DNA from: a virus
DNA: 46,934 nt
IMG/VR virus record: IMGVR_UViG_3300022539_000142
Location: 1 to 46,934 of that record
Direction: 5' to 3' (one strand)
Within the stretch, counting starts at the first letter, position 1. Every line of letters starts with the position of its first letter. Positions 7,082 through 44,300 of this stretch are shown here, piece by piece. The notes under the pieces were generated by a model. It had not been told where the DNA came from and ran no database searches. It was given only the letters and a program-made list of their open reading frames with translations. The translations under genes were made by a program, and so were the position numbers.

Positions 7082-7324
7082 TTAAACAAATGCTGAGAGG
7101 GTAGCAAGGGCCTCCTTTAGTATTCTCCTGGTAGTACGAAGGCTATTTTGGAACTCACTACCTATGTTTGGAGAGTCTCCTGCTGCTTCGACATCGCTCT
7201 CGTCTTCTGGAGTGGAAGCCAATTGAGTTGCCTTCTCCTTGATGCTACAACCCAAATCACGCAGCTCTTCCATGAGCCTCCTTAATCCTTCCACTTGGGT
7301 CTCCTTACTAACTTCTGTCATCAT
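7082..7324 (-). CDS. Small helical protein of unknown function in the recombination block
   Basis: This 80-residue protein has two helical halves separated by an acidic linker. It is translated from an ATG overlapping the stop of the Sak4-like gene, after GGGAGGAAG. Its position between the ATPase and the ssDNA-binding candidate suggests an accessory recombination role. No domain was recognised. Confidence 0.55.
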   Translation of the reverse strand: MMTEVSKETQVEGLRRLMEELRDLGCSIKEKATQLASTPEDESDVEAAGDSPNIGSEFQNSLRTTRRILKEALATLSAFV

Positions 7325-8106
7325 TACTTCCTCCCTTCTTTAAACTTCTTAACACCCCTCTCATATGCTCTAAGAAGGGCTTGGAAGCTGTTACCAAATT
7401 CATCAGGTAACAAGTGTTCAACTCCACTTAAGCGACTTCTAGCCTTGTAGTGGCCCTGGGGTACTGTCCTCATATAGTATATAGTCTGTGCTGGATCACC
7501 CTGTTTCTTAGCAGGAATCTGCCTTGTAAAAGCACAGTATACTTCAGAGAAATAACCAGGGATCATCTGGGCTAGCTGACCAGTTAAAAGTGGTTCAATG
7601 CCTATTATGGCTCCAGTTTCCTGATCTTCTCTGATGCGTAAATGTGAGATGATAACGACGTTGCAGGGGAAGTTTGTGATCTGTCGAAGCTTCCCTTCCA
7701 TCAAATTCCTTACCATCATGAAGTGAACATTCCAGATAGGGCCACCAGTTGCTGAGCGTTTTGGATCGAGCTGTAATGCACGCTCCATAGCTGTATCAGT
7801 TAGGGTACTTGTACTGTCGACTATGACAGTAATGTACTTTCCATCCAAGACATCTTGCTTGACATCTCTAACAGCCTTCTCAAACGTTACCCAGCCAGCC
7901 GATGTCTGAGGGATTGTTTCATAGTCAAAGTCCTTCCCTCTATATATCTGCATGGTATCATCACTGTCGAAGACGAAACCTGGAGTGGGAGTGGTACTGG
8001 CGAAGACTGACTTACCTGTTCCATAGTCTCCAGTGATATGGAACTTCCACCATTCAGTGTCGATGGTTATGTCCTTGGCACTTCTCCTAGCTGTTGCTTC
8101 TTGCAT
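7324..8106 (-). CDS. Sak4-like RecA/AAA-type ATPase (single-strand annealing/recombination)
   Basis: This 260-residue P-loop ATPase has Walker A GDYGTGKS at 26-33 and Walker B TVIVDS near 95. A sensor-like IISHLRIRED segment is followed by 'GIEPLLTGQLAQMIPGYFSEVY', the hallmark of phage Sak4 / AAA_24 proteins. Members of this family promote homologous pairing with a partner ssDNA-binding protein. It lies between a RecB/Cas4-like nuclease and an OB-type candidate, which is the usual phage recombination cassette. A GGAG site precedes the start. Confidence 0.87.
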   Translation of the reverse strand: MQEATARRSAKDITIDTEWWKFHITGDYGTGKSVFASTTPTPGFVFDSDDTMQIYRGKDFDYETIPQTSAGWVTFEKAVRDVKQDVLDGKYITVIVDSTSTLTDTAMERALQLDPKRSATGGPIWNVHFMMVRNLMEGKLRQITNFPCNVVIISHLRIREDQETGAIIGIEPLLTGQLAQMIPGYFSEVYCAFTRQIPAKKQGDPAQTIYYMRTVPQGHYKARSRLSGVEHLLPDEFGNSFQALLRAYERGVKKFKEGRK

Positions 8107-8115
8107 AACTAACTC

Positions 8116-9072
8116 CTATTCAATTACTATCAGCTCTTTCTCTGGCACCGACTTAGTCACTTCCCAAGGCTCCTCCTCAAAGAACCCTTCAAGCACTTCC
8201 TTTCCAAGGGGTGCATTCTGTTCACACAGGGGAGCATAGGTACATCTACCATAGCGGTAGCAATTATCATGCTTCATAGGCCAGACACCTCTCTCTTCAT
8301 TCCTGAGCATATCTTCAGCTGTACTCATGAGAGAGATTCTCCAGGATTCAAGATCTCCATCTGTATAGATCTGTGGAACCCTCTTGAAGTCTATCTTAGG
8401 TTCACCGTACAAACCTGTGACTTTGCTCTTGTAAGCACTTATATGGTGAATAGCTATGAAGCAGCCTTCAGGTGGCTCTTTGTTGACTCGCTTGCTTGCA
8501 TAGGAGTAACCCATGAGCTGGGCGCTTCTGTTAAGGCGGGATTCTACGAGGCTCATTGACTGGCCAGTACTCTTCTGGTCGAGGTGCCAAGGCATTTGGT
8601 TTAACTCAAGGCCAAGATCAAGTTTTCCTGTGAACCAGAAGCCTCCTTGATATGCTATAAGGGGGAAGGTTAGCTGCTCCAGTTCACTAGGCATCATCTT
8701 AATCTGAAATACCTGTTCAACCGAAGTCACCTTCAGCATACCTTCATCAAAGTTGAAATGACCAATGTAGGCAACCAGTGATTTCAAGCAATTCTCAAGG
8801 GTTCGGTAGTCGTCTACGAAGATTTGCTTAGCAGTTTCTTCTTCCCAGGTTTTCTTGATGCCAGCAATAGCACATTCAATGGCTTTGCCATCTCGTGTCC
8901 AGCCATTCTCCAGGATATGGCGGTAAAAACCTTCCATACCACCATGCCAGGTTGAGCCATATCTTAGTGCTGTTGAGCCTTGGTTGGGTTTAAGTCCTCG
9001 GGTGTTTTGCCAGTAGGATTTGCGGTCACAAGTGTCTTGCTGTTCTCTTTTAGTATTGTCTAGTTTTAGCAT
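8116..9072 (-). CDS. PD-(D/E)XK nuclease, RecB/Cas4-like with probable Fe-S cysteines
   Basis: This 318-residue protein has an N-terminal 'STALRYGSTWHGGMEGF' helix, as in RecB-type nucleases. A 'TGKLDL' Asp is followed by 'HLDQKSTG', giving D ... D-x-K catalytic residues. One Cys near the N-terminus (TCDRKSYW) and three near the C-terminus (NC..YGRC...PLC) fit the AddB/Cas4 four-cysteine iron-sulfur arrangement. It is probably the exonuclease partner of the adjacent Sak4-like ATPase. It follows the structured gap 9073-9259, with a hairpin about 30 bp upstream of its start. Confidence 0.85.
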   Translation of the reverse strand: MLKLDNTKREQQDTCDRKSYWQNTRGLKPNQGSTALRYGSTWHGGMEGFYRHILENGWTRDGKAIECAIAGIKKTWEEETAKQIFVDDYRTLENCLKSLVAYIGHFNFDEGMLKVTSVEQVFQIKMMPSELEQLTFPLIAYQGGFWFTGKLDLGLELNQMPWHLDQKSTGQSMSLVESRLNRSAQLMGYSYASKRVNKEPPEGCFIAIHHISAYKSKVTGLYGEPKIDFKRVPQIYTDGDLESWRISLMSTAEDMLRNEERGVWPMKHDNCYRYGRCTYAPLCEQNAPLGKEVLEGFFEEEPWEVTKSVPEKELIVIE

Positions 9073-9259: not shown

Positions 9260-9673
9260 CTACTCGATTCCTGGAAGCGTGATTCCCAAGCTGTCCAGAA
9301 GGGCCTTTGCAACCTTCTGCTCTTTCTCAGACATCTTGCTGAGGTTTGCAGCAACTTCTGTAACAGAGATCTTGGGAGCTGCAGGGGCTCGGACTGACCA
9401 GTCACTCTTCATCAGGCCATCGAAGACCTTATTGATAGAGTCTTCTGCGTCCTTGCCTGCTCTACCAGCTGCAGCATCACCGAGCTTATGGCCAAGGCCA
9501 AAAGGGCCAAGTAAAACCTGGATCTTTTCAGGAAGGCTCTTGAAAGCAAATGACATTGCTCCCTTTGTCCCTCCGGCAACAGTAATGATCACTGTACCTG
9601 GCTTGGTAGCCAAGTCTTTAGTGAGCTTTTTAGGTCTTTTTACTGTTGCAGCTTCTGGTTTTGTTTCTGCCAT
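9260..9673 (-). CDS. Phage protein of unknown function
   Basis: This 137-residue protein starts after GAGGAG. It has a basic Ala/Lys-rich N-terminus and a compact middle (TVIITVAGGTKGAMSFAFKSLPEKIQ). A charged helical C-terminus ends in a hydrophobic, Pro-containing tail. No family was recognised. It sits between the RHH protein and the recombination genes. Confidence 0.7.
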   Translation of the reverse strand: MAETKPEAATVKRPKKLTKDLATKPGTVIITVAGGTKGAMSFAFKSLPEKIQVLLGPFGLGHKLGDAAAGRAGKDAEDSINKVFDGLMKSDWSVRAPAAPKISVTEVAANLSKMSEKEQKVAKALLDSLGITLPGIE

Positions 9674-10428: not shown

Positions 10429-10650
10429 TTATTGCTCACCATCATAAGATAACATTCCCAAAAGGCCTCTTTCCTCTGACGATAGCTTGTGATTTACGCA
10501 GGCTAATTGCTGCTCAACTTGAAATCTGGTACCCCATGTCAGACATTCCTTGAGAAATGCCTTGAGAAATTCTGACTGCTCATTATCTGATTGGTTTGCG
10601 AGTAGAGCACCGATGTAAGACCAGCTTAATTCTTGTAGACCTAGCTTCAT
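10429..10650 (-). CDS. Small helical protein of unknown function
   Basis: This 73-residue protein starts at the ATG at 10650 after GGAGGTGAT; the frame runs nine codons further up, into the ligase gene. The sequence is helical, with one Cys pair far apart. It is translationally linked to the ligase stop. No family was recognised. Confidence 0.6.
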   Translation of the reverse strand: MKLGLQELSWSYIGALLANQSDNEQSEFLKAFLKECLTWGTRFQVEQQLACVNHKLSSEERGLLGMLSYDGEQ

Positions 10651-11495
10651 TCTATCACCTCCACGGCGACTGCACAAATAGGTACTCCACCTATAGTTTT
10701 GTCCTTCTCATGCTTGACCTTCAAAGTGCAACCAATAAGATCTGCTCTATTGTTCCAATACATCTTTCTCTTGGCATGATCAAGTTTACCAGCACCTACG
10801 GAGAAGTGGGTGCCATCATCTCCTCTAACTTCAAAGGCTCCGATCATTCCCTTAGGATTACCTTCTTTGGAGATAGCTTCAGTTATTGAAGCTATGTAAT
10901 ACTCATCCTCCTCAGTAGGCTTGAATTTCAGCATATAGGAGCTGCGCTTCTTCTCATATTCAGAAATAGCACTACGGAGTATGATGCCTTCATAGCCCTC
11001 ACTGGTATAGGCATTTGCCTGTTCCAGCCAGTTCTCAGGAGTAACAATATTGTAGGGGACTCGGATTAGTGGCCCTTCGAAGCAGCCAATCTTTTCCTTG
11101 AGGACTAAAGTATGAACCCTTTGCCACTGAGATGCTGCACCTTGGTGGTCAAAGACGTGGAACTCTAGCTGTGCAGTATCAGGGTTAGGATTCACCTTTC
11201 TACTTGCTGCAGAGTGTATTCTTTCGAAGTTCCAACCATGTTTGTAAAGCTCCCCATCAAGCTCAAGGAGACTGTTTTTGAAGCCTTCCCTGAGTGCCTC
11301 CTTGATAAGGTCAAAAAACTTGAACTCATTTCCATAGCTACTCAACAGTACAGGCTCATCGTGGAACCACTCAACCCTACACCTTTCCCCTTTGAGTTTT
11401 GGCTGGGCGAACATGGAGTCTCCTAGACTCCTTACCAGTCTGTCGGATACTAGCTTTGCTAGCATTATTCCTTCTCGCTTTGGTCTTTCAGCCAT
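10647..11495 (-). CDS. ATP-dependent DNA ligase
   Basis: This 282-residue enzyme seals nicks in phage DNA. It has motif I KLKGER with the adenylated Lys at 33; the usual Asp two positions on is Lys. It also has 'LELDGELY' (motif III-type Glu near 82), 'EGYEGIILR' (motif IV) and 'YMLKFKP' (motif V). The C-terminal 80 residues fit the OB domain. The length matches minimal ligases with only the nucleotidyltransferase and OB domains. The start follows AAGGAGGTG by 8 nt and overlaps the preceding gene by 31 bp. Confidence 0.9.
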   Translation of the reverse strand: MAERPKREGIMLAKLVSDRLVRSLGDSMFAQPKLKGERCRVEWFHDEPVLLSSYGNEFKFFDLIKEALREGFKNSLLELDGELYKHGWNFERIHSAASRKVNPNPDTAQLEFHVFDHQGAASQWQRVHTLVLKEKIGCFEGPLIRVPYNIVTPENWLEQANAYTSEGYEGIILRSAISEYEKKRSSYMLKFKPTEEDEYYIASITEAISKEGNPKGMIGAFEVRGDDGTHFSVGAGKLDHAKRKMYWNNRADLIGCTLKVKHEKDKTIGGVPICAVAVEVIE

Positions 11496-12183: not shown

Positions 12184-12609
12184 TCACCTCCTCTCCCTCT
12201 TAAGAAATTCCTTCTCTGCATCAGAGAGTTTCCCCTCTATCCTTTCAATATCTTCAAGGGAGTAATGATCCTCCTTCATGAGGGTCAATCTCCTCATCTT
12301 GTCCGAGTCATCATCCATAATAACCCTCTCCACCTTCCCATTCTTATTCTTCTTAAAGGCTATGAAAGGGGAGAAGGCTATCCTTTTTAGGACTATCCAG
12401 AACCTGGAGTCCTCAAATCTACTAACTATTTGGAACTGGGAAGCAGTAACAGGGTCTATCTTGGCAAGGACTTTTAACTCCTTAACAAACAACTTCTTCT
12501 TATCCTTCTGATCTTGTCGAGAGTCAGCTGGAAAGAGCATCTGCTCTCCTGTCTCCAGTTCATTGCCAGCTTTCTGCAACCATCTGATAATTATTTCTTG
12601 GGCATCCAT
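12184..12609 (-). CDS. Phage protein of unknown function
   Basis: This 141-residue charged protein has a helical N-terminus, a beta-containing middle (RFWIVLKRIAFSPFIAFKKN) and a helical C-terminus. Its ribosome site is weak. A GTCAA palindrome lies only 11 bp upstream of the start, so binding there, or the RNA hairpin, could control its expression. No family was recognised. Confidence 0.6.
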   Translation of the reverse strand: MDAQEIIIRWLQKAGNELETGEQMLFPADSRQDQKDKKKLFVKELKVLAKIDPVTASQFQIVSRFEDSRFWIVLKRIAFSPFIAFKKNKNGKVERVIMDDDSDKMRRLTLMKEDHYSLEDIERIEGKLSDAEKEFLKRERR

Positions 12610-13029: not shown

Positions 13030-13452
13030 TTAAGGTTTACCACCAGAGACAAGTATCGTCCTTGCTACTGGATATACCTGAATCAGCTTCTTTATCAAGT
13101 CTTCCCTTGCCCACCCATTAAGTACCTTTGGACAGATTGGACAAGTGCTCATCTCTATATCCCGCCTCTCCAAAGGGAGCTTCTTCAATCGCTCAGCCTC
13201 CTTCACAGTAACCTTCCTTGATTGAAGGTAAGGCATCAACTGCTCATTTAGCATTGTCTCCATATGAAAGAACTGAACTGTCTCACCCTCACAGAGGTAG
13301 CAGTGAGTTACTGCTCGTATCAAGTATGGCTTAGGAGGAACTAGGGGCTTTTTTCCTTTTGGTACTGCCTTTGGAGTTACTCCTAGAGACTTTGCCAGAG
13401 CCCTTTCTTTTGCGTTTAGCCTGTTCCACTGTGCTTCGCTTACCTGTACCAT
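13030..13452 (-). CDS. Zinc-binding protein of unknown function
   Basis: This 140-residue protein has CYLC and CPIC pairs about 55 residues apart, predicted to bind one zinc. It has a basic N-terminus and a helical tail. It starts after AAAGGAG and overlaps the C-terminal 40 codons of the preceding gene in another frame. No family was recognised. Confidence 0.7.
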   Translation of the reverse strand: MVQVSEAQWNRLNAKERALAKSLGVTPKAVPKGKKPLVPPKPYLIRAVTHCYLCEGETVQFFHMETMLNEQLMPYLQSRKVTVKEAERLKKLPLERRDIEMSTCPICPKVLNGWAREDLIKKLIQVYPVARTILVSGGKP

Positions 13453-13747
13453 GTGCTATCTCCTTTCCAAGAGGTTTGACCCTACCACTCTTACTAACGA
13501 AGAAGACTTTGTCTTCAGAAATTTCAGGTACCTTGCTGAGGTAGATAGTCCACTTGCCATCCTCCGACTCCCTTGAGATATTTAGTACGTCTGCAAGCTC
13601 CTTATAGGCACGCCTTAGCTTCATCCTTTCCCTATAGAGCTGTATCCTTAAACGCTCCATCTCTTCAAATGAGGAGCACTTAATAGCAATGCACTCACCA
13701 CCCTCTGAAGAAAGGACTTTGTCAAAGATCTTCTGAATGCTTATCAA
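13331..13747 (-). CDS. Protein of unknown function with Lys/Ser-rich tail overlapping the next gene
   Basis: This 138-residue protein starts at a TTG after GGGAGGTGAAACAGA. Residues 1-95 look folded (helices, then WTIYLSKVPEISEDKVFFV). The last 40 are a Lys/Arg/Ser-rich tail lying entirely inside the following gene in another frame. The overlap of about 122 bp is far longer than elsewhere in this genome. An A-AAA-AAG run lies inside it. Confidence 0.6.
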   Translation of the reverse strand: MISIQKIFDKVLSSEGGECIAIKCSSFEEMERLRIQLYRERMKLRRAYKELADVLNISRESEDGKWTIYLSKVPEISEDKVFFVSKSGRVKPLGKEIAHGTGKRSTVEQAKRKRKGSGKVSRSNSKGSTKRKKAPSSS

Positions 13748-16749: not shown

Positions 16750-17109
16750 TCATACTAAGATAACTGGTCTGCTTGGATGGAAATATTCCCACTTACTGAT
16801 AGTATCTTCAGTTCCACCAGTTCGATCACTGGCAATACAAGCAATCAGGACATCAGACTCACGTGCTATATCCGTATTCCTTATAAAGCCAGCACCTCTG
16901 CCATACCGCTTCCAGTCTGCAGGGAACCAAAGGGTAGAAGTCTTATAATTTTTTGCAAGGAGCACAGCAAATCTGTCTCCGCCCTTTGGACAGAGGCCAG
17001 AGCAGATACGGTCTCCTGGTTGATAGACTGATAAGAAGGCTACTTCAACCAAGAGGAGATCGTCTTCCGAGTCTCTGCGTCTTGTGCCTATAATACCGAT
17101 TGTCTTCAT
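16750..17109 (-). CDS. SLOG-family (YspA/DprA-like Rossmann) protein
   Basis: This 119-residue protein has 'IGIIGTRR', 'CSGLCPKGGDRFAVLLAK' and 'RNTDIARESDVLIAC...GGTEDTI'. These are the nucleotide-binding hallmarks of the SLOG superfamily (DUF2493/YspA branch). These proteins bind nucleotides or NAD-derived ligands, and some act in conflict systems. The exact ligand here is unknown. Confidence 0.82.
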   Translation of the reverse strand: MKTIGIIGTRRRDSEDDLLLVEVAFLSVYQPGDRICSGLCPKGGDRFAVLLAKNYKTSTLWFPADWKRYGRGAGFIRNTDIARESDVLIACIASDRTGGTEDTISKWEYFHPSRPVILV

Positions 17110-17381
17110 TGTCTCATCCTCATTCTTGATGCTTCTTCAGCCCACTGTGCCCAAGGCTCATCAATAGTGGGCTGGGAAAGAATCTGGGCAAGTGCAAGCC
17201 TGTGCCAGCAAAAGTCATGATGCCTGCCAGCAGGACAGTCACATGTCCATAACTTACTCCGTCTAATGTAGTGGATTGTATAGGTGTGCTTACCATCTTT
17301 AGAGATGCAGACCTCACCTGTCGTTTCAAAGAACTCGAAACGGTAGATGAGGCCTTTATGCTGTGTTGTCCAGACTTTCAT
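17106..17381 (-). CDS. SWIM-type zinc-finger protein
   Basis: This 91-residue protein starts at the ATG at 17381, which overlaps the preceding stop. The motif C-x-C-x(n)-C-x-H (WTCDCPAGRHHDFCWHRLALAQIL) is a SWIM zinc finger, a DNA- or protein-binding module usually found in larger recombination proteins. Here it stands nearly alone. Confidence 0.78.
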   Translation of the reverse strand: MKVWTTQHKGLIYRFEFFETTGEVCISKDGKHTYTIHYIRRSKLWTCDCPAGRHHDFCWHRLALAQILSQPTIDEPWAQWAEEASRMRMRQ

Positions 17382-17566
17382 TAGTGATAAGGTATTAATA
17401 TTATAGTTCTGTTTCCGCCCACTACAGGGCACTCGATACGAAGCTCCTCTTCCTCAGCGTCGAAGGTATACACATATTCAGTAGGGTTGCGGTTCTGCCG
17501 GAGTAGCTTTGCTACACCTTCAAGGAAGAATGGGACTACACTTCCGTTAATTGTAGTTTTATACAT
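17381..17566 (-). CDS. Small protein of unknown function
   Basis: This 61-residue protein starts after AGGAGGTGAAG. It is mostly beta with an acidic middle (DAEEEELRIE). Its stop overlaps the start of the SWIM-finger gene, so the two are likely co-translated. No family was recognised. Confidence 0.6.
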   Translation of the reverse strand: MYKTTINGSVVPFFLEGVAKLLRQNRNPTEYVYTFDAEEEELRIECPVVGGNRTIILIPYH

Positions 17567-17577
17567 GTCTTCACCTC

Positions 17578-17745
17578 CTATCCACTAAAGCCTTTCCATA
17601 ACCTCAACACCCTCGATGCTTCACCCCTTGTCCAGAAAGGGCCAACCTTTGTCTTATCTATCTTTGGCCTTCCCCAGGCAGAGAGGTATCGAGCAGGTAC
17701 TGCGATTGCTAAGTACATTGGGCGCACTATCCACCAAGTTTCCAT
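17578..17745 (-). CDS. Small basic, tryptophan-rich protein (55 aa)
   Basis: This ORF starts at ATG 17745 after GGGAGGTGAGTAAG and begins METWWIVRPMYLAIAVPARY. A short hydrophobic N-terminal part could associate with the membrane, and the rest is basic. The ribosome site supports it. No family was recognised. Confidence 0.6.
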   Translation of the reverse strand: METWWIVRPMYLAIAVPARYLSAWGRPKIDKTKVGPFWTRGEASRVLRLWKGFSG

Positions 17746-17766
17746 GCTTACTCACCTCCCTTCGTT

Positions 17767-18012
17767 CTAGACTCTCATCTCGATTGAATAAAGATAGCGA
17801 TCATGCCACTGGATCTCCGGTTCTCCTGAACACAGTTTTCGGATCTCTTCAATAATCTTCTTTTCATGAAGCCTTGAAATATTATGCCTCTCATAGACGA
17901 AGGATGGGCCAAAGGTCAGTGTAACATAGACTCCTAGCTCACTATATGTAGGTTCGGCCAGTTTCTTTATCCTATTAATTTCACCTATTAACTTCTGTAT
18001 ATCCTCTATCAT
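17767..18012 (-). CDS. Small protein of unknown function
   Basis: This 81-residue protein starts at the ATG at 18012 after AAGGAGGTGAAG. It is alpha/beta in composition (GVYVTLTFGPSFVYERHNISRLH). A copy of the repeated hairpin (18031-18095) forms its 5' leader. Confidence 0.6.
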   Translation of the reverse strand: MIEDIQKLIGEINRIKKLAEPTYSELGVYVTLTFGPSFVYERHNISRLHEKKIIEEIRKLCSGEPEIQWHDRYLYSIEMRV

Positions 18013-19130: not shown

Positions 19131-19313
19131 TTAATAATCATAGTCACCTTGCACAGAAGCTACTATGTGCTCCTCATCAGCGAGCATGTTCCAGACTTCG
19201 ACCCTCTCATCAGCTTCATTGAAATGTACTTCAATAATATGGTTATGACTATCTGGAACAGCATCCAATAGTTTAGCTGCCTGTCTAATCAGCTCTTGTG
19301 GGATTGTCTTCAT
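19131..19313 (-). CDS. Small acidic protein of unknown function
   Basis: This 60-residue acidic protein starts after GGGAGGTGATTTAGT. A helix is followed by a beta-hairpin (IIEVHFNEADERVEVWNMLADEEHIVASV). Its second half resembles that of the 19837-20022 protein (VDIAFDDKKISIYNTDG), so the two may be distant paralogues. Confidence 0.62.
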   Translation of the reverse strand: MKTIPQELIRQAAKLLDAVPDSHNHIIEVHFNEADERVEVWNMLADEEHIVASVQGDYDY

Positions 19314-19329
19314 ACTAAATCACCTCCCT

Positions 19330-19836
19330 TCAATCATTGAACTGTAAATATATAAACCCATTGTTAAGGACATTATACCATAATACACCCCAGCTGTAAA
19401 GCTCCAATATTAAGGCTACACAGTTATATTCAAGGGTGTACGGTGTACGGTGTACGTGTACGTGTAGGCCCGTGGATACACTTTGATACAACCTGTACGT
19501 GTACGGGTGTACAAGTCCTTGGACATATATCTCCTTAACTGTGCCGAGCTTGGGGTGAGTCAGATTTCCTTCTTTAAGTATATATAAAATATATATATAA
19601 AAAATAAGAAAAGACTCTAAGCATTTTTTAAGCTTAGAAGGATTTAAGGATTTTAGTGTCACTTAGTGGTCATTATTGCTTATTTTGGGTTAAGAAAGGT
19701 CAATAAATGACCTTTTGACTTGGTATTGTTATAGCTGTGTCAGTACACGTACATTGTGTGACATAGTGTACCTAGACCCGTACACGTACACGTACACGTA
19801 CAGATGTACAGGCTGATTTGTTTGTTTAAGGTTGGT
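19330..19836. other. Gene-free region with inverted TGTAC/GTACA arrays and AT-rich core; candidate replication origin
   Basis: I see no credible gene in these 507 bp. Seven TGTAC motifs lie at 19437-19512, mostly 6-7 bp apart. Seven GTACA motifs in inverse orientation lie at 19743-19810, four of them at 6-bp period. Between them are an almost pure A/T tract (19573-19611), a CTAAGC/GCTTAG stem (19617-19637) and a GTCAA palindrome (19695-19715). Iteron arrays around an easily melted tract are the usual layout of a phage origin. A regulatory or terminator role for parts of it is possible. The initiator protein is not identified. Confidence 0.55.
19695..19715. promoter_or_regulatory. GTCAA palindrome, site 5
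   Basis: AAAGGTCAA, TAA, ATGACCTTT, the same sequence as site 4, inside the origin-like region. Confidence 0.75.
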
Positions 19837-20022
19837 TTACATAAAGTAATCAAAATCCCTTTCTGCTACAAGTGTACCGTCTGTATTGTATATGGAAATC
19901 TTTTTGTCATCGAATGCAATGTCTACATGGTGTGCATCTGGGCTATAGTCCGCTACCCATTCACCTATGGCTATAATCTCCCTTACTGAGAACAATGCCA
20001 AGCACTTATGCTTTAATACCAT
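19837..20022 (-). CDS. Small protein of unknown function
   Basis: This 61-residue protein starts at the ATG at 20022 after AAAGGTGGTGAT; two GTG codons lie further up. It reads MVLKHKCLALFSVREII...HHVDIAFDDKKISIYNTDG and is of mixed fold. It lies just downstream of the 20044-20069 terminator, so its transcription needs readthrough or antitermination. No family was recognised. Confidence 0.58.
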   Translation of the reverse strand: MVLKHKCLALFSVREIIAIGEWVADYSPDAHHVDIAFDDKKISIYNTDGTLVAERDFDYFM

Positions 20023-20043
20023 TGGTATCACCACCTTTCCAGT

Positions 20044-20069
20044 AAGAAAAGGCGGGCTTTCACCCGCCT
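20044..20069 (-). terminator. Intrinsic terminator of the first leftward unit
   Basis: On the minus strand a 7-bp GC-rich stem (AGGCGGG/CCCGCCT) with a 6-nt loop is followed by TTTTCTT. It lies 10 bp after the stop of the 20080-20421 gene. It is the clearest terminator in the window and separates two short genes from the rest of the left arm. Confidence 0.8.
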
Positions 20070-20079
20070 CCCTTGGTTG

Positions 20080-20421
20080 TTAAACCAGGCCTAACTTGTC
20101 CAGTACTGCTATCTCTTCCTTGGTTGCCTTTAGCCTTGCCTCGTAAACCTTTTTCTTCATGGTAGCCTTGGATTCACCTGGTTTAGTCCACTGATCCTTC
20201 TTCAGCGTAGCCCATACTTCAGCCACCTTTGCCTTCCGCTCATCATCGGTGTAGTCCTTGCTATTCATGCCAGCAGTGCTGTCTATCAGCTTTTGGCACA
20301 GGCCGTGTAGTTTACAGTTGGCTTGCATGGTCTGGGGCAGGTCGGACACCTTGTACTGCACACCATACAATGATAGCGTACCCTTGGTGAAGTCCTTGGT
20401 CATCTTTCGCTTGGTAGTCAT
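20080..20421 (-). CDS. Second gene of the leftward promoter unit, unknown function
   Basis: This 113-residue basic protein starts after AAGGAGGTGAT. It has a beta-like start (TLSLYGVQYKVSDL) and a helical Lys-rich C-terminal half with repeated 'KATMKKKVYEARLKATKEEI'. It is transcribed from the strong promoter at 20621-20649 and is followed directly by a terminator. An early regulatory role is plausible. No family was recognised. Confidence 0.7.
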   Translation of the reverse strand: MTTKRKMTKDFTKGTLSLYGVQYKVSDLPQTMQANCKLHGLCQKLIDSTAGMNSKDYTDDERKAKVAEVWATLKKDQWTKPGESKATMKKKVYEARLKATKEEIAVLDKLGLV

Positions 20422-20455
20422 AGTGTATCACCTCCTTCCATATACAGCGTTAGCG

Positions 20456-20584
20456 TTATGATAAGCCCTTGGTTGCTATGGGAAACAGCTTCCGTAATAG
20501 CCTACGCTCATCTGGCGTACACTGTGGCCAGCGTTCTCTAATCACCCTACGCATTACCATGCGCCTTATGAGCTTGTGTATCAT
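20456..20584 (-). CDS. First gene of the leftward unit: 42-aa basic protein
   Basis: This ORF starts at ATG 20584 after GGGAGGTGAT, 36 bp downstream of the promoter -10 box. It reads MIHKLIRRMVMRRVIRERW then CTPDERRLLRKLFP, and is highly basic and helical. Small basic proteins in this position often bind nucleic acid or RNA polymerase, but no function is known. Its short size makes it easy to miss. Confidence 0.7.
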   Translation of the reverse strand: MIHKLIRRMVMRRVIRERWPQCTPDERRLLRKLFPIATKGLS

Positions 20585-20620: not shown

Positions 20621-20649
20621 ATTGTACACTGTTCCAATTGAAATGTCAA
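20621..20649 (-). promoter_or_regulatory. Strong sigma70-type promoter for the left arm
   Basis: TTGACA (20649-20644), a 17-bp spacer and TACAAT (20626-20621). The spacer contains a CAATTGGAACA motif that recurs upstream, so a repressor bound there would block the promoter. Confidence 0.85.
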
Positions 20650-20881
20650 GTTATTTCTCAAACTGGCCGTGGGTGCGGGTTTCCCGAGGTCACTGATCAA
20701 TTGGAACACTTAATGGAACAACCAAATGAAACTGAATTGGAACACCCTTGGAACACCACAGGAAGACCCCACCAAGCCCCATGACCCCCTTATGAATGCT
20801 ATTGATTGGATTACTCAGGCTACACATGCCAAGTTTTTAAACCAAGTGCTTAGGACTTCCTAAGTGGTTGTTGGAACAACC
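20630..20881. promoter_or_regulatory. Array of (T)TGGAACA motifs, candidate operator cluster
   Basis: Motifs sit in the promoter spacer (20630-20640, minus orientation) and at 20698-20709, 20711-20722, 20734-20745, 20747-20757 and 20866-20881. The last is a perfect palindrome, GGTTGTTGGAACAACC. Five copies read on the plus strand and one on the minus strand, between the two divergent promoters. The interval 20700-20930 contains no supported gene. Confidence 0.65.
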
Positions 20882-20936: not shown

Positions 20937-20965
20937 TTGACATTCTGGGTTTATTGTGGTACGGT
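20937..20965 (+). promoter_or_regulatory. Candidate rightward promoter for the structural arm
   Basis: TTGACA is followed by a 17-bp spacer and TACGGT, a poor -10 box (three of six consensus bases). It lies 35 bp before the small-terminase start. The position and perfect -35 suggest a promoter, possibly one that needs an activator or a phage factor. Confidence 0.5.
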
Positions 20966-20999: not shown

Positions 21000-21458
21000 A
21001 TGACGGCAAAGTTTGAGCTTGATACTGAGACCTTGATGGATCTGGAAGAGATAGGCCTGACTAATAAGCAAGTGGCTGTTGAGGTAGGCTGTCATCCAAT
21101 GACCCTCTCCAGAAAGATCGCTGATGTACAGAAGAAGCAGGGTCTCCTTTTGCAGTATAGAGCCATCCAATCCCTCCAACTTACGGAGCTACAAGCTCGT
21201 GTCCTCGAAGCAATAACTCCTGAGAAGATTAATGAAGCGCCTTTACGAGACCTTGTGATTGCCTTTAAGGTCTTGAAGGATAAGGAGCTTAATCTTGATG
21301 GGAAGCCTTCAGATATCAAGGGTTTGGTAGCTTACCTTATTGAGCTTGAGAAGGAAGACCTAGCTCTAGCAAAGCCTGTAGATGCTGTCGATGCAGAACA
21401 TGAGGAGGTGCAAAATGACAAGGAAATAACTGATCCAGACTACGTACCGGAGGTGTAG
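21000..21458 (+). CDS. Small terminase subunit candidate
   Basis: This 152-residue protein starts at the ATG at 21000 after GGAG; the frame extends 21 codons upstream into the promoter. Residues about 15-45 (MDLEEIGLTNKQVAVEVGCHPMTLSRKI) are a helix-turn-helix. A helical oligomerisation-type middle and an acidic tail follow. The HTH plus the position just before the large terminase is the usual signature of TerS, which recognises the packaging site. The assignment rests on fold and context. Confidence 0.72.
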   Translation: MTAKFELDTETLMDLEEIGLTNKQVAVEVGCHPMTLSRKIADVQKKQGLLLQYRAIQSLQLTELQARVLEAITPEKINEAPLRDLVIAFKVLKDKELNLDGKPSDIKGLVAYLIELEKEDLALAKPVDAVDAEHEEVQNDKEITDPDYVPEV

Positions 21459-27507: not shown

Positions 27508-28548
27508 ATGGCAACTACACCTAAAACGCAGTTTCAGACCAATGACGCCTTGACCAGGAAAAAGTGGGCGAAAGACCTTTTCAGGATCATCCTTCCAGCT
27601 GTTGAGTATAACTACCTAGTGGGTACAGGAACTGACTCAATCGTACAGCTGAGGACAGAGCTTGGTAAGGGAGAAGGTGACAAGATCACCTTTGGAATTC
27701 GTCTGCCCCTAACTGGTGCTGGTGTCGTTGGTAGAGATACGGTCGAGGGAAATGAAGAGAAGCTGATCTTCAAGGACTTTGACATGACCATTGAGGAGTT
27801 GAACCATGCAGTTGATACTGGTGGTAAGATGGATGAGCAAAGAATCCCTTACGACCTGATGATAGAAGGGAAGAATGCTCTCCAGGACTGGTGGGCTGAT
27901 AAGCTGTCGGAAATTCTGATAGCTACACTGTGTGGAAATACCAGTTTTACGATTGCTGGTAAAACCTTTGCTCAGGCCTGTACTGCTCCAACTAAGGCCT
28001 TGACAGTAAATGATACGGCCGAAGCAAGTATCTCATCCGCTGACACAATGGATCTTCACTTCTTGGACAGGATGAAGCAGAGAGCTCAGATGCCTACAGC
28101 AGGCACTAATGAGCGCAAGGTACGGCCCCTTAAGAAAGGGGGCAAGAATTACTTCCGAGTAATTATGCATACCTATGTTTTTGATGCTCTGCGTCAGAAC
28201 ATGAACGTAGGGCAGTGGGGTGACTTGCTGAGGAATGCTCAGAAACTCCAGATACCTCAGGTCGAGTTTGAGTATAATGGAATGCTCGTTACCAAGTCGG
28301 AGAGGTGTACATCGCCTTATACCAATGTGTACAGAAGTGTACTAGTTGGCTGTCAGTCCGCTACGTGGGCTTGGGGAGGTGCTGGTGAGAGTAAGGGTTC
28401 GGTAATGGCCTTTGTGCCTTACGAGAAGGATGCCAAGCGGTACGTCATGATCAGAGGCGGAGGCATCTTTGGAGTGAAAAAGGTAGTCTTCCAAGCTGAG
28501 GACTATGGCGTCGTGACTGGCTCCAGTTACGGAGCAGCATTGACATAA
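27508..28548 (+). CDS. Major capsid protein (N4 gp56 / DUF4043 family)
   Basis: This 346-residue protein should form the shell. The pattern 'RKKWAKDLFRIILPAVEYNYLVGTGTDSIVQLRTEL.KGEGDKITFGIRLPLTGAGVVGRDTVEGNEEKL.FKDF' is typical of the N4 gp56-like capsid family. The C-terminal 'ALLVGCQ...AWAW'-type region is also present (SVLVGCQSATWAWGG). AAGGAGG precedes the start. The pairing of an N4-type capsid with a P22-type portal is seen in several podovirus-like groups. Confidence 0.9.
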   Translation: MATTPKTQFQTNDALTRKKWAKDLFRIILPAVEYNYLVGTGTDSIVQLRTELGKGEGDKITFGIRLPLTGAGVVGRDTVEGNEEKLIFKDFDMTIEELNHAVDTGGKMDEQRIPYDLMIEGKNALQDWWADKLSEILIATLCGNTSFTIAGKTFAQACTAPTKALTVNDTAEASISSADTMDLHFLDRMKQRAQMPTAGTNERKVRPLKKGGKNYFRVIMHTYVFDALRQNMNVGQWGDLLRNAQKLQIPQVEFEYNGMLVTKSERCTSPYTNVYRSVLVGCQSATWAWGGAGESKGSVMAFVPYEKDAKRYVMIRGGGIFGVKKVVFQAEDYGVVTGSSYGAALT

Positions 28549-28561
28549 TAGGAGGTCTGTT

Positions 28562-28972
28562 ATGACAGATAAATTTAGTCACAAGCTGGCTAACAATTAC
28601 AAGCTGGCAATGAGTGGGTTGTTCATACAGACTGCTATTACTGCTGCGACGTACAACATTGTCCGTATTCCCAGTCATGCCCTTGTACAGGATGTCTGGC
28701 TTGAGGTTACAGAAGTTTGTACAGCGGCTGCAACAATCACTATCGGATGGGGAGCCTATGGCTCAGTGTCTGCACAGACAGCGGGCTTTATGTCGAATGA
28801 CATAGCAGCACCTCAAGACCCAGTTGGGCTTAGGAGAGCCCAAAAGGACAATCTACTCACGTTTCCAGGCAGGTACTTTGAGGCTGGCAGCAGCATTTTG
28901 ACTGTCACAACCACTGGTACCTTTACTGCGGGTAAGTTTAGAGTGTTCATGGGATACTCAGTTATCCGCTAA
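28562..28972 (+). CDS. Capsid-associated (decoration-type) protein candidate
   Basis: This 136-residue beta-rich protein follows the capsid gene and starts after GGAGG. The regular strands (YNIVRIPSHALVQDVWLEVTEV...TITIGWGAY) suggest a decoration or head-completion protein. The following 180-residue protein has a similar layout. No family was named. Confidence 0.6.
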   Translation: MTDKFSHKLANNYKLAMSGLFIQTAITAATYNIVRIPSHALVQDVWLEVTEVCTAAATITIGWGAYGSVSAQTAGFMSNDIAAPQDPVGLRRAQKDNLLTFPGRYFEAGSSILTVTTTGTFTAGKFRVFMGYSVIR

Positions 28973-29031
28973 ACCTTGAAACTCTTAGGGGTTCCTCAAC
29001 AGGAATCAACTTAGAATTAGGAGGTTCTATT

Positions 29032-29574
29032 ATGGCTAATATAGTAGATCTCAGGCGGACTGACCTGAGAAGCAATGTATTGGAGAATCCGTATTGGATT
29101 ACTTCAAGGGAGATAACGTGTCCTACCCATGACGCTGTAGTTGTTGGACTTTTCTCTTTTCCAATTACTCTCATAGCTTCATCTCTGTGTGAGGCTTGCT
29201 ATGGTAACAGCAAGATTATCATTCAGGAGGCAGTATGGGAGATAAACACAGCGTTTTCTGGGGGTACCCCAGCGCTTATCGCAGGTATACAAACTCTTGA
29301 TCTCCAGACGACTCTGGCCTATACTGACTCTAACGAGAATGCACTTATAGAGTCTGTTGCAGGTTCAGGTGTGACTAACTCTGCGGGCGTATATCCACTT
29401 CATGTGACCAGTGCCTTTGATACTGCCAGAGTTGCAGGGCAGCATGCAACTGATTACGTCATTACACCAGCTGATACTGTTGTTCCTTGTATAACAGTTA
29501 ACCCCTCAGGTGGTATGACAGGTGGTTCTGCGTTCTTGCACTTGCTGATCGCAGTGGTACCTCAGGTGACCTAA
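29032..29574 (+). CDS. Capsid-associated protein candidate, similar layout to its neighbour
   Basis: This 180-residue beta-rich protein starts after AGGAGG. It has 'VVVGLFSFPITLIASSLCEACYGNSKIIIQEAVWEI'. Like the preceding protein it may be a head decoration or vertex protein. The 59-bp gap before it holds a short imperfect hairpin (GGTTCCTCAACAGGAATC) of unclear meaning. Confidence 0.6.
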   Translation: MANIVDLRRTDLRSNVLENPYWITSREITCPTHDAVVVGLFSFPITLIASSLCEACYGNSKIIIQEAVWEINTAFSGGTPALIAGIQTLDLQTTLAYTDSNENALIESVAGSGVTNSAGVYPLHVTSAFDTARVAGQHATDYVITPADTVVPCITVNPSGGMTGGSAFLHLLIAVVPQVT

Positions 29575-29578
29575 GCGT

Positions 29579-29599
29579 AAACGTCAATAATTGACGTTT
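29579..29599. promoter_or_regulatory. GTCAA palindrome, site 7
   Basis: Perfect AAACGTCAA, TAA, TTGACGTTT, 5 bp after the stop of the decoration-type gene and 72 bp before the next start. It has C/G in place of the G/C of other copies, changed in both arms, so symmetry is kept. Confidence 0.8.
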
Positions 29600-29670
29600 C
29601 TGGCGTGACTGCTTCTGGACAGGTGGAGGCTAACTGCCAAGTCTCCACCTTTCTAAACCCTGGAGGTGCT

Positions 29671-30324
29671 ATGGATAGGTTGGAAATCAGGACAGAGGTA
29701 GAGAATATTATTCAGGACTCAAGCTTTAGCATTGAGACCCTGAATGGTTATATCAACCAGTGTATCTTGTATGCTGGAGCACAGGTTGACATACCAGATC
29801 TGAAGAGAATTGATGTTGTTGATACAGTTCTCTCCCAAGCATATATAGGTCTGACTGGTCTAACTGGCGGCTTCTCAGGAAAACTGAACAGAGTCAAGGA
29901 TGCTGATGGAAATGATATAGCTATTGCTGCCAACCTCGATCTGTTAATGGATGAGTATGACATGGATGAGGTTGGTGATGTTGAGACTGTTGCTCTGGAG
30001 GGCTCTACCCTCTGGTACCAGAAAATACCTGAAACAGTAGAGACTCTTACTGCTTTGTACTACCGGAACCCTGCTATCCTAAGCACTGATGATGCCTCAC
30101 CCAGTGACTTCCCTGAACACCTACACAGAAATCTCTTTGTGCATGGAACTGCTTGGATCATCTACGACCAGATAGAAGATGATGCTGAGGAAGCAAAGGT
30201 GAATGCCAGGAGTCAATTCTGGCAGTCTTTCAGTGAGGACAATAAGCATTCTGGAATTGTTAAACTTAGAGAGTGGTTGGCTAAGACCAGGAGACATAAC
30301 ATCAGTAGTAGCTGGAGGCAGTAG
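29671..30324 (+). CDS. Neck/adaptor (head-completion) protein candidate
   Basis: This 217-residue protein starts at the ATG at 29671, after TGGAGG; the frame extends further up across the palindrome. The helical start 'MDRLEIRTEVENIIQDSSFSIETLNGYINQCILYAG' and a body with 'VETLTALYYRNP' and a helical end resemble P22 gp4-like head-tail adaptors. The position after the capsid genes supports this. Confidence 0.7.
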   Translation: MDRLEIRTEVENIIQDSSFSIETLNGYINQCILYAGAQVDIPDLKRIDVVDTVLSQAYIGLTGLTGGFSGKLNRVKDADGNDIAIAANLDLLMDEYDMDEVGDVETVALEGSTLWYQKIPETVETLTALYYRNPAILSTDDASPSDFPEHLHRNLFVHGTAWIIYDQIEDDAEEAKVNARSQFWQSFSEDNKHSGIVKLREWLAKTRRHNISSSWRQ

Positions 30325-31953: not shown

Positions 31954-32586
31954 ATGGCTGTTTCTGGATGGGCTGATCTAACATTACCTGCACTGACTGG
32001 TGCAGGTGCTGGTAACTTCAGAGGGGAGCCAGAACTTCCAGCTCTTACTGTAAGTGCGATTGGTGGTGCCAGTAGTGGTTTTGGTAGTGTCACCTTACCT
32101 GCACTTACTGTTGCTGGCAAGAGGGGTGCAGTTGTTGCACTTACACTTCCTGCCCTTACAATCTGTGGTTCTGGAGCTCCAGGTGGATCTGCTACGGTCG
32201 ATCTACCAGCCTTGGAGGCTGAGGGATTTGGTGGTGGATATGGAGATGTAGCACTACCCACTCTCACAGTTTCTGCTACTGGAATACCTGGACTCCTGGG
32301 TTCCTCCTACTTAGAGCTACCGAGGCTTACTGTCAGTGCAGATGGAGTTGTACGGCTCTTCAGTGAGATAGGCATTACCTTACCAATGCTCACTGTTGCA
32401 GCAACAGGATTGGAAGGGCTATTTGGAACTGCTGACATTGACTTGCTAGGGCTTACAGCAGAGGCTACAGGGTATGTCGAGACTGATGGAGAGGCAGATG
32501 TGAACTTGCCAATACTGGTAGTTCTTGGTCGTGGAGTAGGCCATACCTATAGATTCTATGATTATATCTTGAGGCATGAGAGATAA
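31954..32586 (+). CDS. 'LPxLTVxAxG' repeat protein
   Basis: This 210-residue protein is built of about ten tandem repeats of roughly 18-22 residues centred on '(D/T)LPALTV(S/A)A(T)G'. Gly-rich turns alternate with two short strands, as in beta-solenoids. Examples are LPALTVSAIG, LPALTVAGKR, LPTLTVSATG, LPRLTVSADG and LPMLTVAATG. It is probably a virion surface or fibre-linked structure. A further repeat (DLPSLFACGTG) opens the next gene. Confidence 0.68.
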   Translation: MAVSGWADLTLPALTGAGAGNFRGEPELPALTVSAIGGASSGFGSVTLPALTVAGKRGAVVALTLPALTICGSGAPGGSATVDLPALEAEGFGGGYGDVALPTLTVSATGIPGLLGSSYLELPRLTVSADGVVRLFSEIGITLPMLTVAATGLEGLFGTADIDLLGLTAEATGYVETDGEADVNLPILVVLGRGVGHTYRFYDYILRHER

Positions 32587-33170
32587 TGGATCTTCCAAGT
32601 CTATTTGCCTGTGGTACTGGTACAGTTCCTGAGTGGGATGACTACTTGGGACTCTGTATGGAGCTGTCCCTGCTGGCACCGACACAGTATGCTAACTATA
32701 GCTTTGATGCTTTGTGCCAGTTTGGTGACGTCTACCTGGGCAGTAATGATGCTGGTATATTCTCCCTAGATGGTAATACTGATAATGGTATCCATATAGC
32801 TGCATTCTTTGAGCTGTTGCTGACAGACTTTGGCATTCCTAATCAGAAGAGGATAAGGAAGGCTTATCTTGGCTATGAGGCTTCAGGCTCACTGGTACTA
32901 GAGGCTAAAGATGATGACAATAATGTTCGAAGGTATACAGTTGGAGCAGCCTTGGATGACCAGAGGCAATACGGAGTACATGTGCCAGTTGGCAGGGACG
33001 GTAAAGGTAGATATTGGACTTTTAGATTGGAGAATGTTGACGGATGTGACTTCAGTGTTGATAGTATTGATGTACTGGTGACAGTCCTTGCGAGGAAGTC
33101 AGGTAAGACAAGCGTTAACGCTGGCAGGTTTCGTATTCCTGTCCCTGGTGTCTATGGAGTAGGAAGCTGA
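32586..33170 (+). CDS. Virion protein candidate, unknown function
   Basis: This 194-residue protein starts at an ATG sharing a base with the preceding stop (TAATG). Its first residues (MDLPSLFACGTG) look like one more unit of the repeat in the previous gene. The rest is alpha/beta with 'YGVHVPVGRDGKGRYWTFRLENVDGCDFSVDSIDVLV', similar to tail protein end regions that fold as a jelly-roll-like beta domain. Confidence 0.62.
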   Translation: MDLPSLFACGTGTVPEWDDYLGLCMELSLLAPTQYANYSFDALCQFGDVYLGSNDAGIFSLDGNTDNGIHIAAFFELLLTDFGIPNQKRIRKAYLGYEASGSLVLEAKDDDNNVRRYTVGAALDDQRQYGVHVPVGRDGKGRYWTFRLENVDGCDFSVDSIDVLVTVLARKSGKTSVNAGRFRIPVPGVYGVGS

Positions 33171-43305: not shown

Positions 43306-44300
43306 TGGCTGAATTGAGTAAGGTAGATAATCTTGCCTATGGAGACATAGCTAAGTTGATCGAGATTGCCGCTGCAGATATAGCTAAAGTATATGGACTG
43401 GAATGGCCTGCTGGCGTAGGCAGCGGAGACAGAGGAGTGTATGCTGGTGGTATTAGCTTCACGAATGTTATCGCCTATATCACTATTTCATCACCCAGCA
43501 ACGCTACTAATTTTGGAGATCTGACTTCTACCAGATATGGCTCTGGAGCTGTTTCGAACGGAGCCAATAATAGAGGTGTGTTCGGCGCAGGAAAATCAAG
43601 TAACATTATGGAGTATATTACTATTTCTTCTGAAGGCGATGCTACAGACTTTGGTGATCTGTTAATTGATGGTACTAATGCAGCAGGTGTGTCTAATGGG
43701 ACTAACGAGAGGGGCTGCTTTGCGCTGGATGCAGGCACGGGCAATGTTATAGAGTATATTACTATTAGTATCCTCAGCAATGCTGTTGACTTTGGAGACT
43801 TAGTCCGTGACCGTGACTTTCTAGCTTCTGCTGATAACGGGACTAATGACAGGGGACTATTCATAGGAACCAATGTTGCTGTAACAGGTAGAGAGATAGA
43901 CTATATCACCATTTCATCAACTGGCAATGCTATTGACTTTGGAGATTTGACTATAGATATATTCAAGCATGATGGAACCTCTAATGGTACTAATGATAGA
44001 GGAATATTTGGGGGAGGAACTCCAGATGGTGCAAATGATACTGACGTGATAGATTACGTTACTATCTCGTCCACTGGTGACGCTACCGACTTTGGAAACT
44101 TAACACTTAGCAGATCGCATACGAATGCTTGCTCTAACGGAACTAATGAGCGAGGGGTATGGATACAGGGATACGATTACGACCTTACAGTAGGTGTCAA
44201 TATTATGGACTATGTTACAATTAACTCTACTGGCAATGCTTCTGATTTTGGAGATGCAACCGAAGAAAGGTATAATGGTGCAGCAACTTCTAATGCTTGA
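43305..44300 (+). CDS. 'YITISSTGNATDFGDL' repeat fibre-like protein
   Basis: This 331-residue protein starts at the ATG at 43305, coupled to the previous stop; the frame extends further up. After about 50 residues it has six tandem repeats of about 40-50 residues with 'N.I.YITISS.GNATDFGDLT..R', 'SNGTN.RG.F.GG'. This repeat family is frequent in phage tail-fibre-like proteins and folds as a propeller or lattice. It probably forms the host-contact part, with the glycosyltransferase next to it. Confidence 0.7.
   Translation: MAELSKVDNLAYGDIAKLIEIAAADIAKVYGLEWPAGVGSGDRGVYAGGISFTNVIAYITISSPSNATNFGDLTSTRYGSGAVSNGANNRGVFGAGKSSNIMEYITISSEGDATDFGDLLIDGTNAAGVSNGTNERGCFALDAGTGNVIEYITISILSNAVDFGDLVRDRDFLASADNGTNDRGLFIGTNVAVTGREIDYITISSTGNAIDFGDLTIDIFKHDGTSNGTNDRGIFGGGTPDGANDTDVIDYVTISSTGDATDFGNLTLSRSHTNACSNGTNERGVWIQGYDYDLTVGVNIMDYVTINSTGNASDFGDATEERYNGAATSNA

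Follow-up and report, generated by a model that had tools for sequence, protein, structure and literature searches.

The window, by which we mean the whole stretch of 46,934 nucleotides analysed here, is an uncultured virus record that is not closed. Leftward early genes occupy 1-20.6 kb, and rightward packaging and structural genes, including those for TerL, the major capsid protein, the tail and other structural genes, follow from 21,000. Besides the polymerase, annealing protein, exonuclease and ligase listed in Table 1, the early region encodes a protein in which a ParB-like N domain is joined to a methyltransferase. A near-identical contig, G019, extends 1,082 bp beyond the right end of the window, and because this extension encodes the C-terminal portion of a helicase of the DUF3987 type, the helicase gene probably lies between the two ends of the window. 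Both helicase and polymerase are conserved across the phage family.

Close to the switch in gene direction, between the leftward genes 19131-19313 and 19837-20022, lies a region of about 0.5 kb in which we found no credible gene. It had originally been described as a gene-free stretch of 507 bp, and its internal open reading frames are indeed short and have no matches in the relatives; nor was a conserved protein found to be encoded in this region in the relatives, a finding that had been named in advance as grounds for discarding the origin proposal. No known RNA was matched.

Other repeats occur elsewhere in the window. Five TTGGAACA words, one of them inverted, lie at 20630-20878 directly upstream of the gene that probably encodes the small terminase, and the cluster could be an operator or a packaging site. 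At 43464-44255, six repeats of 57 nt, 61-75% alike and spaced by 138-156 nt, lie inside a late gene that probably encodes a tail fibre or another repeat protein.

Table 1. Features of the window discussed in the text
Feature	Coordinates	Strand	Basis or context
Family A DNA polymerase, cut by contig end	2..2293	-	replisome context
Sak4-like annealing protein	7324-8106	-	early region
Exonuclease	8116-9072	-	early region
ATP-dependent DNA ligase	10647-11495	-	early region
Whole non-coding region, proposed origin	19330..19836	.	ORFs, repeat score, stability
Left iteron array, 7 TGTAC (mostly GTGTACG), two sub-clusters	19436..19513	+	repeat counts, shuffles
AT-rich core, candidate DNA-unwinding element	19572..19631	.	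least stable 60-mer of the window
Small stem-loop beside core, CTAAGC (19617-19622) / GCTTAG (19632-19637)	19617..19637	+	sequence
Element AAGCTTAGAA beside AT tract	19630..19639	+	10-mer comparison with relatives' cores
Palindrome AAAGGTCAATAAATGACCTTT between core and right array	19695..19715	.	one of eight genome-wide copies
Right iteron array, inverted, 7 GTACA (CGTACAC)	19743..19811	-	repeat counts, shuffles
Gene beside array, candidate partner	20080..20421	-	family members near array in most relatives
Probable small terminase subunit, an HTH protein encoded upstream of TerL	21000..21458	+	HTH broadly conserved, array word changes

Repeat arrays and the AT-rich core

The left array consists of seven TGTAC copies (19437, 19444, 19451, 19457, 19494, 19500 and 19508), which face seven GTACA copies in the right array (19743, 19749, 19780, 19786, 19792, 19798 and 19806). 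Only three copies in the region have the opposite orientation (TGTAC at 19767 and 19805, GTACA at 19509), and two of these three belong to palindromic TGTACA. The inverted seven-plus-seven arrangement of the original prediction was thus confirmed by counting, and it exceeds both controls: across 20,000 first-order shuffled versions of the region, the smaller of the left and right counts never rose above 4, and its best value elsewhere in the contig is 3. The short tandem periods that had been noted also hold, with steps of 6-8 bp between the copies within each sub-array. The window contains 11 copies of the longer word GTGTACG, eight of them in the region, against an expected 0.96. In a scan for inverted and tandem 6-mers the array locus gave the highest score of the window (216), followed by a runner-up of 105.

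The A/T tract and the small stem described earlier between the arrays are both present, the tract spanning about 19574-19609. The 60 bp starting at 19572 form the stability minimum of the contig, as none of the 46,297 other 60-mers is equally unstable. Like iteron origins, the region has a short repeat, specific to the replicon, in multiple copies in non-coding DNA, adjoining an AT-rich region of low helical stability. The element AAGCTTAGAA beside the A/T tract represents a kind of 10-mer that, searched for as AGCTTAGAAA allowing at most one mismatch, was found in 7 of 12 relatives' cores, compared with a maximum of 4 in 200 shuffled sets, and was absent from most of the validation set introduced below.

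Related phages and their repeat words

Relatives were gathered from the viral collection by terminase, palindrome and repeat-word searches; the exact 16-mer TGTAC pattern alone missed relatives with other words. No DNA similarity was found between the region and annotated or known phages. The layout of two inverted arrays with an AT-rich or poly-A core between them recurs in another 17 contigs, clearly in about 14 and weakly in three (L121, G022 and G023). Within the family, which is large and consists of uncultured tailed phages, the array locus is flanked by the leftward early genes on one side and by the terminase genes on the other. G003, G021 and G022 are complete relatives. The copy number varies among the relatives, so that seven plus seven is not a fixed feature.

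The TGTAC word was found in only two of the 17, G020 and G024, the remainder having other words. G020 (3300010411_000003) carries TGTAC, an AT core and GTACA at the equivalent place, with a TerL about 58% and a polymerase 53% identical to those of the window. Elsewhere the word is CGGTAAC (G003), CGGTAAA (G013 and the near-identical G004), GGTACTA and GTGCTA (G008), TGTAGG (L112), GTGTATC (L124), GGTAATG/CGGTAAC (L125), CAGTAA (L126), GGTGAAC (L187), AAATAAC (L188), GTGTAAA (L189), AATAACA (G007, split by poly-A at the contig ends), GGTAATG and GGCAACG (G021) or CGTAACG (G026). Many of these words contain GTA and to our eye they look loosely alike, as might be expected after drift from a single ancestral site. 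Contigs of relatives also break in or near the poly-A core, G007 at 1 and 47028 and G006 at 1; G006 starts inside poly-A and only one side of its array is visible. The proposed origin region can therefore be expected to be lost or split often in metagenome assemblies.

We ranked the locus against whole contigs. In a first set of 13 contigs, the array had the top inverted/tandem score in all except G013, and the least stable 60-mer lay inside the array locus in 11, a count that is partly circular because the set was partly found through AT minima. For validation, nine further contigs were found by their capsid protein and both measures were computed over each whole contig. The stability minimum and the top array score fell at one place in G024, G025 and G026; the global stability minimum of G021 coincided with the second-best array score. 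On inspection, the arrays were clear in G021, G024 and G026, and weaker ones lay at the stability minima of G022 and G023. No clear array was seen in G025, G027, G029 or G032; of these, G027 begins close to TerL, G029 is cut at the contig start, and the coincidence of measures in G032 resembles protein-coding sequence.

These comparisons bear on the main rival explanation, a pac site at which a terminase subunit would bind the repeats on both sides and cut the core. In the window, only 1-2 kb separate the array from the gene for the probable small terminase, and there is a precedent in P1, whose 161-bp pac carries seven hexamer repeats, TGATCA/G, which packaging proteins recognise and at which pacase binds and cuts (PMC10028697). 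However, the HTH of this probable small terminase is broadly conserved, with about 61% whole-protein identity between the window and G003, whereas the word changes completely, and in G003 the array lies about 12 kb from TerL. Moreover, P1 pac is located inside a gene, pacA, unlike the non-coding region described here, which holds the genome's stability minimum between its arrays; a packaging site need not be the least stable DNA of a genome. We therefore regard a pac site as unlikely. The probable small terminase was also rejected as a reader of the arrays, given the conservation of its HTH across differing words.

Some relatives carry interrupted genes. In L099 (3958-6462) and G025 (27644-30145), TerL is interrupted in frame after residue ~53 by an insertion located at a Walker A-like motif (SGHG|...|TGKDA) and probably an intein. 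The polymerase is split near residue 617 by about 0.9 kb in G008 (32090-32946) and G006 (16935-17884), either by an intein or by an intron. The MAG bins holding L186, L187, L188 and L189 are assigned to Desulfobacterales, Bacillota, Erysipelotrichaceae and Woesebacteria. As these four contigs point to conflicting phyla, we make no claim about the host.

A dispersed palindrome

A GTCAA palindrome had been listed, with the A/T tract and the small stem, among the elements enclosed by the arrays. It does lie between the arrays, but as one of eight near-identical copies of AAA(G/C)GTCAATWATTGAC(G/C)TTT in the window (7052, 12620, 15146, 19109, 19695, 20884, 29579 and 42221), where about none would be expected. 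All eight are within or adjoin intergenic gaps, in early and late regions alike. Several relatives carry 5-12 copies, and a search with the palindrome pattern recovers relatives from the viral collection. In the late region of G003, the copies lie 1-5 bp past a stop codon and 17-22 bp ahead of the next start. Because the palindrome occurs in relatives with other array words and is missing from G020, which shares the TGTAC word with the window, it is an element apart from the arrays, probably a separate genome-wide regulatory element outside the array system. The set perhaps resembles a genome-wide operator or stoperator set.

The arrays themselves could in principle serve as operators to which an early-gene regulator or antirepressor binds, the AT tract then being the promoter region. 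The region is upstream of leftward early genes, and the stoperators of cluster A mycobacteriophages illustrate that operators can drift together with their regulator (PMC6550527). On the other hand, the arrays are kept inverted about the genome's least stable DNA, leftward genes carry on beyond the far side of the region (19837-20584), and the palindrome already resembles an operator set. An operator function of the arrays thus appears quite improbable to us.

Candidate initiators and GC skew

No clear initiator match was found among the early proteins of the window that were scanned, and the genes 19131-19313, 19837-20022 and 20080-20421 gave no Rep-like match. D5_N, Rep_3 N-terminal and lambda O-type (Phage_rep_O) domains were searched for in ten family contigs and not found, and the region contains no DnaA box, either perfect or with one mismatch.

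Many relatives carry early paralogue pairs, represented by 12184-12540 / 13331-13747 and by 9260-9673 / 20080-20421, the copy at 9260-9673 being the more conserved of the latter two. Neither family had a Pfam match or a PHROG with a function, and their AlphaFold models, which were of moderate quality, matched no PDB fold at E below 0.4. Both families were considered as readers of the arrays and rejected, as their similarity does not track a shared word. The family of 20080-20421 is a candidate partner of the array as a lead only.

The protein content also bears on a centromere-like site for partition or nucleoprotein assembly in plasmid-like maintenance. Sites of the parS type likewise have short inverted or direct iterons, and the phage encodes the ParB-like domain fused to a methyltransferase. 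Yet no ParA was recognised among the proteins scanned, and phages that differ in their word share the ParB/methyltransferase protein at 41-60% identity. We consider this explanation very improbable; both the operator and the centromere readings are less likely than a pac site.

The cumulative GC skew had been suggested as a check, a minimum elsewhere counting against the origin proposal. The minimum of the window was found at 20,945, 1.1 kb away from the arrays, and that of the circular G003 at 344, both at the switch in gene direction. The skew of leftward genes is equal on the two sides of the arrays (third positions -0.067 vs -0.052). Because the skew follows gene direction, it is uninformative and allows no conclusion about an origin.

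Proposed replication origin

We estimate a probability of roughly 0.75 that the phage replicates from this region, as an origin whose iterons are split and inverted and whose core unwinds. Origins of bacterial replicons are usually built with iterons next to AT-rich DNA that unwinds (PMC5043065), and the placement of the arrays around the least stable DNA fits an origin with an unwinding element. That the layout persists through changes of the word speaks for iterons and an initiator, and fits sites that change together with the sequence-specific protein reading them. The original proposal of a candidate origin is thus strengthened by the relatives, which keep the layout and its place around the least stable DNA and change the word.

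The sequence gives the arrays, the stability minimum of the core, the genes for helicase and polymerase and, across the relatives, a shared place and layout with differing words; from these we infer initiator binding, core melting and a start of replication at this locus. A phage-encoded initiator would bind the short tandem iterons of both facing arrays, and the two resulting nucleoprotein arrays would strain or wrap the DNA, melting the AT-rich core. The phage helicase of the DUF3987 type and the family A polymerase could then be loaded at the melted core. Copies inside one phage remain alike, but the word drifts from phage to phage, presumably alongside the initiator.

The odds seem to us evenly balanced on a broader proposal drawn from the same comparisons, namely that this uncultured family uses a split inverted-iteron origin read by an undescribed initiator family whose specificity is diversifying very fast. 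Phages sharing more than half of their protein residues would then mostly use different iterons. More than ten phages of the family would form a natural series with one origin plan and different words, which enables a search for the reader protein by co-variation and a study of how initiator and site change together. Inverted short arrays around the stability minimum of a contig could also serve as an origin finder for uncultured phages.

Comparison with known systems

In lambda-type origins, initiator-binding repeats adjoin an A+T-rich region that melts (PMC5043065), and the proposed origin resembles them in having repeats beside an AT-rich core. Ectopic copies of the lambda origin have been shown to inhibit the phage (PMC4488673). 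The lambda iterons, however, are inverted repeats of 19 bp that adjoin the AT region inside the O gene, whereas the units in the window are 6-8 bp long and lie on both sides of the core in non-coding DNA, with no Phage_rep_O domain. Herpes simplex oriS has inversely oriented initiator boxes with an AT-rich spacer between them (PMC12543377), an arrangement like that of the inverted arrays, but it consists of three boxes read by an SF2 helicase initiator in an unrelated virus, in contrast to arrays of seven or more.

The closest known architecture is that of the origins of phage-inducible chromosomal islands (PICIs), comprising SaPIs and Gram-negative PICIs, in which two sets of short iterons flank an AT-rich putative melting site and the iteron sequences are shown separately for each element (PMC6092414). 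In 2018 the authors stated that this organisation occurred in no other known bacterial replicon (PMC6092414). Two iteron sets flanking an AT-rich region are also what we find in the window, and the likeness to a PICI origin in the way it might work is good. Unlike a PICI, the owner of the window is a tailed phage with its own structural genes rather than a helper-dependent satellite, and the array is not directly 3' of a recognisable Rep or Pri-Rep gene, with no D5_N domain in the ten contigs. Because of the missing Rep neighbour and the phage's own structural genes, we do not claim membership in the PICI class. If our interpretation is true, the two-sided iteron origin described as unique to PICIs would also exist in self-sufficient tailed phages.
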